IMG/VR virus record: IMGVR_UViG_3300006121_000036
Span: 1 to 28,450 of that record
Length of the DNA stretch: 28,450 nt
DNA from: a virus
Reading direction: 5' to 3' (one strand)
Part shown: positions 13,680 through 15,087 of the stretch, in pieces
How positions within the stretch are numbered: the stretch's first letter is position 1
Layout: every line of letters starts with the position of its first letter
Notes under the pieces: generated by a model
Seen by the model: only the letters and a program-made list of their open reading frames with translations
The model's database searches: none
What the model was told of the DNA's origin: nothing
Position numbers and translations under genes: made by a program

Positions 13680-13853
13680 TTATTCGATTATTTTATCTCT
13701 GTCAAGCGAGGGCGGTACAAACCCAAACCGTGCGAAGGTTTTAGCAACATTGGTTTCACTGGCCCGAACATATACGAAATCCGTATTGAGCAGACTAGCA
13801 TTATGCGCCTGGACACGTTGTAAATGTTCTATCTCTTGTTCAAATTCATCCAT
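13680..13853 (-). CDS. Small protein after the methyltransferase (57 aa)
   Basis: ATG at 13853 overlaps the methyltransferase stop by 8 bases. Encodes MDEFEQEIEHLQRVQAHNAS, continuing to NVAKTFARFGFVPPSLDRDK. The N-terminal part is a charged helix. No family recognised. The close coupling suggests a partner or regulator of the methyltransferase region. The opposite strand also holds an open frame here, which I take as incidental. Confidence 0.6.
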   Translation of the reverse strand: MDEFEQEIEHLQRVQAHNASLLNTDFVYVRASETNVAKTFARFGFVPPSLDRDKIIE

Positions 13854-14733
13854 GATTATTTCCTTTTAATAAATTCCATGCTGTTCTTGCCACTTCTGGA
13901 ACTTGTCCATTTCCAATGGATTTAAGTCTGTCCACCCTAGCGGCCACCCCATCAGCCACTCGACCCACGTTGGGTTCAACTGTCCACCAGTTTTGTGTTG
14001 ATTGTCCGTGTGCTGAACCGCTACATCCAGCGTGTCCCAGCTTATTTTTCCGTCCCTGATCCTGCCCCCTATGTAACCCCCTTTGTAATCCCTCGTTGAT
14101 GGTGTTGGCCACATACGATGGGGTGGTGGGTACACAACTTGTTCTCGCAACGTCGCGTGAGTCGATCTGCCCTGCCTGTTTTTGTCGTACTGCCTCTTGA
14201 GTGCTTCTGGTGATCGTGGTGCCAGCCCGTCCATCGCTGTGGGGGTGAGCCACAATCCAGATTCGCTCTCTTTGATGGGGCGCACCAACGTCTGCTGCTG
14301 ATACAATTCCCCACCTTGCGTCATACCCCAGCGTGGTAAGGTCGGCAAGGACTCGGTCAAGTCCCCGAACAAGGAGCATTGGGCTGTTTTCCACATAGAC
14401 GTATTGTGGTCGTACTTGGCCCACGATGCGCGCCATATGTTTCCACATACTGGATCGCTCTCCGTCCAATCCATCACCTCGTCCTGCGATTGAGATGTCC
14501 TGGCAGGGAAACCCGCCCGATACAACATCAACAATTCCTCGCCAAGGTTGTCCGTCAAAGGTTTGTACGTCATCCCAGATCGGGAAAGACGGGAGAACTT
14601 TGTCATTTTGTCGGGCGCACAATATGCTTGCTGGGTATGGTTCCCATTCAACGGCACAGACTGTTCGCCATCCAAGCAAATGTCCCCCAAGTATTCCTCC
14701 ACCAGCACCTGCGAAAAGAGCCAACTCATTCAA
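13846..14733 (-). CDS. Cytosine-C5 DNA methyltransferase (Dcm type)
   Basis: 295 residues from TTG at 14733 (MNELALFAGAGGG, the usual start of phage Dcm proteins). Motif I is LFAGAGGGILGG. Motif IV is GGFPCQDIS, with the catalytic Cys. Motif VI is VYVENSP. Motif VIII is QRERIWIVAH. The C-terminal RVDRLKSIGNGQVPEVAR is motif X. Between VIII and X lies the variable target-recognition region (~170-250). It methylates C5 of cytosine in a short site using SAM, probably to protect phage DNA from host restriction; no partner nuclease gene is visible. The whole gene is also read in a second frame (13866-14729). The start lies 24 bases after a terminator. Confidence 0.93.
   Translation of the reverse strand: MNELALFAGAGGGILGGHLLGWRTVCAVEWEPYPASILCARQNDKVLPSFPIWDDVQTFDGQPWRGIVDVVSGGFPCQDISIAGRGDGLDGERSSMWKHMARIVGQVRPQYVYVENSPMLLVRGLDRVLADLTTLGYDARWGIVSAADVGAPHQRERIWIVAHPHSDGRAGTTITRSTQEAVRQKQAGQIDSRDVARTSCVPTTPSYVANTINEGLQRGLHRGQDQGRKNKLGHAGCSGSAHGQSTQNWWTVEPNVGRVADGVAARVDRLKSIGNGQVPEVARTAWNLLKGNNHG
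13866..14729 (-). CDS. Overprinted protein in alternative frame of the methyltransferase gene (287 aa)
   Basis: The ATG at 14729 is 4 bases after the methyltransferase TTG and 8 bases from the shared GGAGGT. The frame stays open for 287 codons inside the Dcm gene. The product does not look random. NLGEELLMLYRAGFPARTSQSQ, WAKYDHNTSMWKTAQCSLFGDL, LPRWGMTQGGELY and LNPTWVEWLMGWPLGWTDL are phrases I know from a widespread group of phage proteins of unknown role. Here the last of these is encoded by the bases that give EPNVGRVADGVAARVDRL in Dcm. I infer that both frames are used. The alternative is that only Dcm is made and the family is a recurrent annotation of its shifted frame. Confidence 0.6.
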   Translation of the reverse strand: MSWLFSQVLVEEYLGDICLDGEQSVPLNGNHTQQAYCAPDKMTKFSRLSRSGMTYKPLTDNLGEELLMLYRAGFPARTSQSQDEVMDWTESDPVCGNIWRASWAKYDHNTSMWKTAQCSLFGDLTESLPTLPRWGMTQGGELYQQQTLVRPIKESESGLWLTPTAMDGLAPRSPEALKRQYDKNRQGRSTHATLREQVVYPPPHRMWPTPSTRDYKGGYIGGRIRDGKISWDTLDVAVQHTDNQHKTGGQLNPTWVEWLMGWPLGWTDLNPLEMDKFQKWQEQHGIY

Positions 14734-14756
14734 GAGTACCTCCGATATCAAAAGAT

Positions 14757-14798
14757 AAAAAAAACCCCTAGAACGTCCATTAAATCAATTCTAGGGGT
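14757..14798 (-). terminator. Intrinsic terminator between 14809 gene and methyltransferase
   Basis: On the minus strand ACCCCTAGAA (14798-14789) and TTCTAGGGGT (14773-14764) make a perfect 10-bp stem with a 15-nt loop, followed by a run of T (14764-14757). It stops or attenuates transcripts from the divergent region before the methyltransferase, leaving only 24 bases for any separate promoter. Confidence 0.85.
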
Positions 14799-14808
14799 AT
14801 TGTGATTG

Positions 14809-15087
14809 TTAATATTCAGTATACAAAGCAGAGCGATCTTCTTTTGTGCGCTCGCCAATCCAACGCACCCATAGTTCTGGATTCTTTTCCAACAACACCC
14901 AAGGATCGCAATAGTGCCACATTTGATTCCAGTTGCCGCTAATCATGTCTAGCGTCTCTGGATCAATTGGCGTTGACCATACGACCAACTCTGGCATGTC
15001 GTCGAGGTGAAACACTCGGTTTTCTGCAATCAACATTTCAAGAAACTCGATCACTTTTTTATCTGAGTTAATGCGTAATTTTTTCAT
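14809..15087 (-). CDS. Hypothetical protein (92 aa)
   Basis: AAGGGAAATC precedes the ATG. Trp-rich (VVWSTPIDPET, NWNQMWHYCDPW, ELWVRWIGERT) with an N-terminal basic helix. No family recognised. It ends 11 bases before a strong terminator, so it closes a short transcript starting in the divergent region. Confidence 0.7.
   Translation of the reverse strand: MKKLRINSDKKVIEFLEMLIAENRVFHLDDMPELVVWSTPIDPETLDMISGNWNQMWHYCDPWVLLEKNPELWVRWIGERTKEDRSALYTEY

Follow-up and report, generated by a model that had tools for sequence, protein, structure and literature searches.

The window analysed here, the whole stretch of 28,450 bases, is a virus record that carries terminase, portal, major head, RecE-like and RecT-like genes, indicating that it derives from a tailed phage. 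On its minus strand two genes overlap over almost their entire lengths. The first, in the Dcm frame (13846..14733, minus strand, 295 aa), is predicted from its matches to PF00145 and phrog_363 and from its motifs to encode the catalytic (alpha-like) subunit of a C5 DNA-methyltransferase. The second, overprinted in the +1 frame (13866..14729, minus strand, 287 aa), is supported as a gene by a match to phrog_1008 and by a depletion of stop codons and is proposed to encode a target-recognition (beta-like) subunit.

Both genes begin immediately downstream of a single Shine-Dalgarno (SD) sequence, GGAGGT (14738..14743, minus strand), and the junction reads TATCGGAGGTACTCTTGAATGAGTTGGCTC on the minus strand. 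The earlier note had described GGAGGT followed by two start codons in two frames, and re-reading the sequence confirmed this exactly: the TTG that opens the Dcm frame (14731..14733, minus strand) lies four bases past the T of GGAGGT, and the ATG that opens the overprinted frame (14727..14729, minus strand) lies eight bases past the same T. A TGA in frame with the second gene (14732-14730) abuts its ATG, so that this ATG is the earliest possible start of the second gene. When both strands of the window were searched, GGAGG followed after 3-7 nt by NTGAATG occurred only here, compared to 16 occurrences of NTGAATG when no SD was required.

The upstream neighbor of the pair ends at 14809 and is followed by an 11-pair hairpin (CCCCTAGAA..TTCTAGGGG) and a run of eight T (14757..14798, minus strand), which lie directly upstream of the SD. 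This hairpin, which is absent from the list produced by our pattern scan (loop limit of 8), is probably the intrinsic terminator of the preceding gene. The gap between the eight-T hairpin and the SD is 13 nt, too short for an intervening promoter. The Dcm/second-gene pair is probably transcribed via read-through or antitermination.

The Dcm-frame protein matched phrog_363 (9.7e-70) and PF00145 (1.8e-31), the latter over residues 4-187 only and reaching position 182 of the 324 positions in the profile. Motifs I, IV, VI, VIII and X occur in order (FAGAGG at residue 7, FPCQ at 75, ENS at 115, the QRER region at 153 and GNGQV at 274), and an in-frame motif IX pattern was not found in this chain. 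The structural model of the protein contains a confident catalytic domain, whose fold resembles those of M.HhaI and M.HaeIII over approximately 175 residues, and a confident motif X helix (residues 279-290). Residues ~175-271 are disordered in the model, with pLDDT values of 35-49 in the part encoded by 13989..14252. Together, sequence and model suggest that the Dcm chain lacks a target-recognition domain of its own and is not an enzyme of the one-chain C5 type.

We found that the second frame behaves as a coding gene across relatives. Its first 163 codons contained 5 stops versus 391 expected in 127 non-redundant loci, and in the same loci its translation showed an identity of.56 to the window's protein, compared to.35 in codon-shuffle controls. 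Counted by frame, the +1 frame contained 10 stops versus 419 expected, and the third frame contained 1229 versus 993 expected, showing no depletion. In loci collected by a scan with the Dcm alignment, the second frame extends nearly as far as Dcm itself and contains 0-1 stops in almost every locus, and shuffling synonymous codons in these loci produced a mean of 2-9 stops. Because relatives share codons by descent, we used other genes of the same loci, namely their non-overlapping longest ORFs, as the control for four-fold sites, and found that four-fold third-base identity was.62-.64 in Dcm versus.37 in single-frame genes (at 60-80% protein identity). An earlier synonymous-constraint control, which used uncleaned ORFs including wrong-frame ones, yielded no clear difference. 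These comparisons show that both frames are coding and under selection, so that the overprinted protein, which the earlier note had listed as unknown, is by sequence comparison the product of a real and conserved gene; the dual-coding part of the earlier interpretation is well supported at this level. Four loci have one frame broken by a single stop or break and the other intact (the Dcm frame in L083, L107 and L186, the second frame in L205), reflecting sequencing error or recent loss.

Comparison of the two reading frames in 142 non-redundant loci indicated that constraint alternates along the overlap. Across the block encoding motifs I-VIII (14242..14733, minus strand), constraint lies in the Dcm frame, with amino acid identities of.81 for Dcm and.58 for the alternative frame and third-position differences of.36. 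The reverse holds across the block at the target-recognition position (13989..14252, minus strand), which carries xTP motifs at residues 159 and 207 and in which the alternative frame reaches an identity of.87 versus.54 for Dcm. Difference rates at Dcm codon positions 1, 2 and 3 in this block are.41,.11 and.07, respectively, a distribution typical of coding in the second frame. A further conserved block of the alternative frame, GGQLNPTWVEWLMGWPLGWTDLNPL (13914..13988, minus strand), occupies the motif IX position, with identities of.85-.87 over codons -15 to 0 ahead of motif X; here the second frame encodes LNPxWVEWLMGWPLGWTDL following the target-recognition position, and the block preceding motif X has an identity of.87 in the second frame versus.67 in Dcm. 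Constraint returns to the Dcm frame in the motif X block, RVDRLKSIGNGQVPEVARTAWNLLK (13864..13938, minus strand), where identity after GN is.83 for Dcm versus.48 for the alternative frame and which includes the modeled helix. Along the DNA, the parts thus follow one another as in a one-chain C5 enzyme: catalytic part, recognition part, motif IX position and finally motif X, the middle two being read in the other frame. The early end of the Dcm profile match and the disorder in the middle of the Dcm model follow from this arrangement, because selection on the inner part lies in the second frame.

Database comparisons of the second protein yielded a match to phrog_1008 (2e-25, residues 37-270), a family whose label, 'DNA methyltransferase', is uninformative as to which frame was meant. 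NCBIfam and Pfam searches with the second protein returned nothing, Pfam matched none of 117 members of its family, hhalign of the family against 12 one-chain enzymes returned nothing, and a search of the PDB by sequence returned nothing usable. With a strict motif IX profile, the LNPxWVEWLMGWP site did not stand out (mean z 0.34). Modeled alone, the second protein gave a poor structure (pTM 0.32), too weak to use, and fold comparison matched it to no known fold. In relatives, the middle corresponding to residues 160-245 spans from ~20 to 165 codons and holds 0-5 [W/L]xTP motifs, most often 2-3. Some relatives (e.g., L039 and L051) have near-identical ends and differing middles, as expected for exchange of recognition modules.

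The overlap is widely distributed. In 20 bacterial genomes, the second frame was present in 17 of 17 truncated-type Dcm homologues and in 0 of 12 other C5-MTase ORFs, a split that is not a blind census because the truncated Dcm genes were found partly by profile. Searching with the second protein retrieved 80 bacterial loci from many phyla, and every one of them overlaps Dcm in the same relative frame. The arrangement recurs on a Leptospira plasmid and in 36 of 38 more distant viral loci, of which the remaining two are contig ends. In most records just one of the two frames is annotated. In Pseudomonas phage phPA-G (L064) and Vibrio phage 1.236.O (L070), it is the second frame that is annotated, as hypothetical, and Dcm that is omitted, the reverse of the usual situation. 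In the literature that we searched, we found no earlier report of this overlap in phages; the record of Paenibacillus phage Diva marks a 'g49 internal gene', indicating that annotators had already seen it.

We then compared the junction among relatives. The place of the second-frame start holds ATG in 204 of 209 distinct relatives, GTG in 1 and no start in 4. Of 209 distinct genes, 202 have Asn as Dcm residue 2, and every one of these 202 uses AAT for it, compared to 487 AAC and 275 AAT codons for Asn elsewhere in the same genes; as these AAT and ATG counts come from related sequences, they are not to be read as a probability. Two genes have His at residue 2, encoded by CAT, which keeps the ATG, and one has Arg encoded by CGT, which keeps GTG. 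Dcm itself makes no demand for AAT at its second codon. A scan queried with the Dcm alignment only, and hence unbiased for the second frame, found ATG at +4 in 71 of the 72 distinct loci it returned. When viral contigs were scanned with the second protein, 61 loci were obtained, of which 58 include its N terminus; in all 58 the ATG (or the equivalent position) follows a start-like codon and an A. Judged from these sequences, conservation of the junction is far greater than chance would give.

Conservation of the two starts together is more restricted. A Dcm start codon (ATG in 88, GTG in 39 and TTG in 23) lies 4 nt ahead of the second start in 150 of 177 distinct junctions, which form one clade. 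Of these 150, 126 carry an SD of at least 4 nt, whose commonest register, also that of the window, puts it 4 nt ahead of the Dcm start and 8 nt ahead of the second one. The other 27 junctions have TTA, CTT, GTT or TTT where the Dcm start is expected, and in most of them a Dcm start is found a few codons upstream. The ATG has an SD of its own, ~5-6 nt away, in 19 of these 27, and in 4 junctions of the CTT class it has no preceding SD. In distant relatives the second gene starts 100-260 nt inside Dcm, in some cases with its own SD. The single shared SD is a trait of one clade and not universal. The earlier note had looked to related phages for both start codons and their spacing; retention of both starts and of the 4-nt offset across the clade supports dual initiation at the level of conservation, and the distant relatives, with their second start inside Dcm, do not follow this arrangement.

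Two further features of the junction vary among relatives. In L101 and L112, Dcm residue 2 is Arg and there is no ATG; the second frame starts upstream of Dcm, so that the order of the starts is reversed. Among 188 junctions, 114 have an upstream ORF (at least 50 codons) whose stop is one of the two TGA of NTGAATGA, such that three genes meet within eight bases; this stop is the TGA abutting the ATG in 70 and the TGA within ATGA in 44.

To place the spacing of the window's starts, we used 60 control genes whose start is unambiguous and whose SD is good, in which the distance from the last G of GGAGG has a median of 5, quartiles of 4-7 and a 90th percentile of ~8. The TTG of the window lies at 5 nt and the ATG at 9 nt, so it is the TTG that is better spaced, contrary to the earlier note's description of the ATG as the better-placed start. 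The ATG is the stronger codon and the TTG the better spaced one, and sequence does not decide which of them wins. The shared arrangement places the SD at the usual spacing for the Dcm start and farther from the second start, at a long but usable distance. The earlier suggestion that Dcm is kept low by design is not supported, as TTG is not conserved and is used in only 23 of the 150 two-start junctions.

Taken together, these data make it probable that 13846-14733 contains two same-strand genes that each encode one part of a single C5 cytosine methyltransferase, with both starts near one SD. The Dcm frame would supply the catalytic domain (motifs I-VIII) together with motif X, and the +1 frame would supply a protein conserved exactly at the position of the target-recognition domain and motif IX of one-chain enzymes. 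A ribosome bound at the shared SD, at 5 and 9 nt from the two codons, could start in either frame, such that both subunits would be made from one message. We infer that the two proteins bind each other, that both are needed for methylation and that both starts are used.

An alternative that we consider unlikely accepts both proteins as real and holds that ribosomes arrive at the ATG chiefly through termination-reinitiation or coupling, and not by independent initiation at the shared SD. It would account for the upstream ORFs of at least 50 codons that end on the TGA before the ATG (70 of 188 junctions) or on the TGA of ATGA (44 more), for the 4 CTT-class junctions with no SD before the ATG, and for the second starts that lie inside Dcm in distant relatives. 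The window, however, has no upstream ORF ending at the junction, and coupling to the upstream gene does not apply there because that gene ends at 14809, before the hairpin and its U-run. A good SD also lies at a usable distance from both codons, and of the 27 junctions in which Dcm has its start at another place, 19 retain a separate SD for the ATG. Coupling to an upstream ORF may nevertheless operate in other relatives.

It is also rather unlikely, in our estimation, that the second protein is conserved for a function of its own, for example as a methyltransferase regulator or an anti-restriction factor, and is not a recognition subunit. Such a function would be compatible with the lack of any sequence or fold link between the second protein and a known target-recognition domain or motif IX, and with the ~100 N-terminal residues that overlie the catalytic part. 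However, the strongest constraint on the second protein falls exactly on the stretch corresponding to the recognition domain and motif IX, in which Dcm is unconstrained and disordered, and the protein was found only over truncated Dcm (80 of 80 bacterial loci) and never with other C5 enzymes.

Fusion of the two frames into one chain by frameshifting, with poly-G tracts serving as slippery or phase-variable sites, is very improbable: although a minority of relatives carry G/C tracts of 8-15 and in several of them the frames exchange exactly at the tract, no such tract is present in the window's gene or in most relatives, fusion would come at the cost of either motif X or the second start, and tract lengths in assemblies are possibly wrong. 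Tracts were found in L044, L046-L050, L052, L055-L058, L119 and twelve more loci. Runs of 8-15 G/C are approximately nine times denser in Dcm and the second gene than in the flanks (18 per 140 kb versus 9 per 656 kb) and recur at nt ~260 and ~505-515. In frame-exchanged loci the exchange sits at the run, and L050 (G9, exchanged) is closely related to L052 (G10, intact). Frame exchange at these runs looks like phase variation and could be just that, or could arise from assembly error. Finally, we give almost no credence to the idea that the second frame is untranslated and open only through the codon and amino acid make-up of Dcm, since, even though a strongly conserved Dcm makes any overlapping frame look alike among relatives, this is refuted by the stop counts, by constraint at synonymous (four-fold) sites, by the AAT bias and by the mid-gene reversal of codon-position rates.

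Returning to the reading of the pair as two parts of one enzyme, we tentatively extend it to a broader proposal that is somewhat less likely than not: the very large and widespread class of 'orphan Dcm' genes of phages and prophages would encode not a one-protein enzyme but the catalytic chain of an enzyme with an overprinted specificity chain, SD-NTGAATG would set the ratio of the two in one clade, G-tracts would switch specificity in some lineages, and the second protein would be missing from most annotations. If the pair is indeed one enzyme, cloned phage Dcm genes would have been assayed or read without their specificity part, and their target sites would be unassignable. The overlap of ~860 nt is a rare one in which the division of labor between frames can be read from where each is constrained, and the junction offers a clean test case for one ribosome-binding site feeding two starts.

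The same overlap is annotated in Paenibacillus phage Diva, in which the DNA-cytosine methyltransferase g49 contains the internal gene g50 in the +1 frame, and the second frame matches this family. Unlike in the window, the second gene of Diva starts far inside Dcm with no shared SD, and its annotation proposes no function. Among characterized enzymes, M.EcoHK31I has a small polypeptide that is coded inside the large one in a different frame, and the second chain of the phage pair is likewise coded in an overlapping frame. In contrast to M.EcoHK31I, the second phage gene is offset by 4 nt from the start of the first and covers almost all of it, with one SD for both; the pair is also phage-borne, with no restriction enzyme seen. 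According to PMC3404938 (citing Lee, Kam and Shaw 1995), M.EcoHK31I (YGGCCR) comprises two polypeptides, a large one with motifs I-VIII and X and a small one with motif IX, and the second polypeptide is required. The phage Dcm chain resembles the large polypeptide so described in having motifs I-VIII and X and no motif IX. The large subunit of M.EcoHK31I is said to hold the predicted recognition domain, unlike the phage Dcm, in which that part is unconstrained and disordered. With respect to the small chain with its motif IX, the phage has its LNPxWVEWLMGWPLGW block at the motif IX place, with negative results from the motif IX profile and hhalign. M.AquI (CYCGRG), a two-subunit C5 methyltransferase whose small subunit has motifs IX and X (PMC3404938), is like the phage pair a C5 enzyme split naturally into two polypeptides, but motif X of the phage stays in the Dcm frame, and by this description the pair is not of the M.AquI type. 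Because the motif IX tests were negative, the phage pair is a candidate member of the M.EcoHK31I-like group, and by analogy it is best read as a two-polypeptide C5-methyltransferase like M.EcoHK31I.
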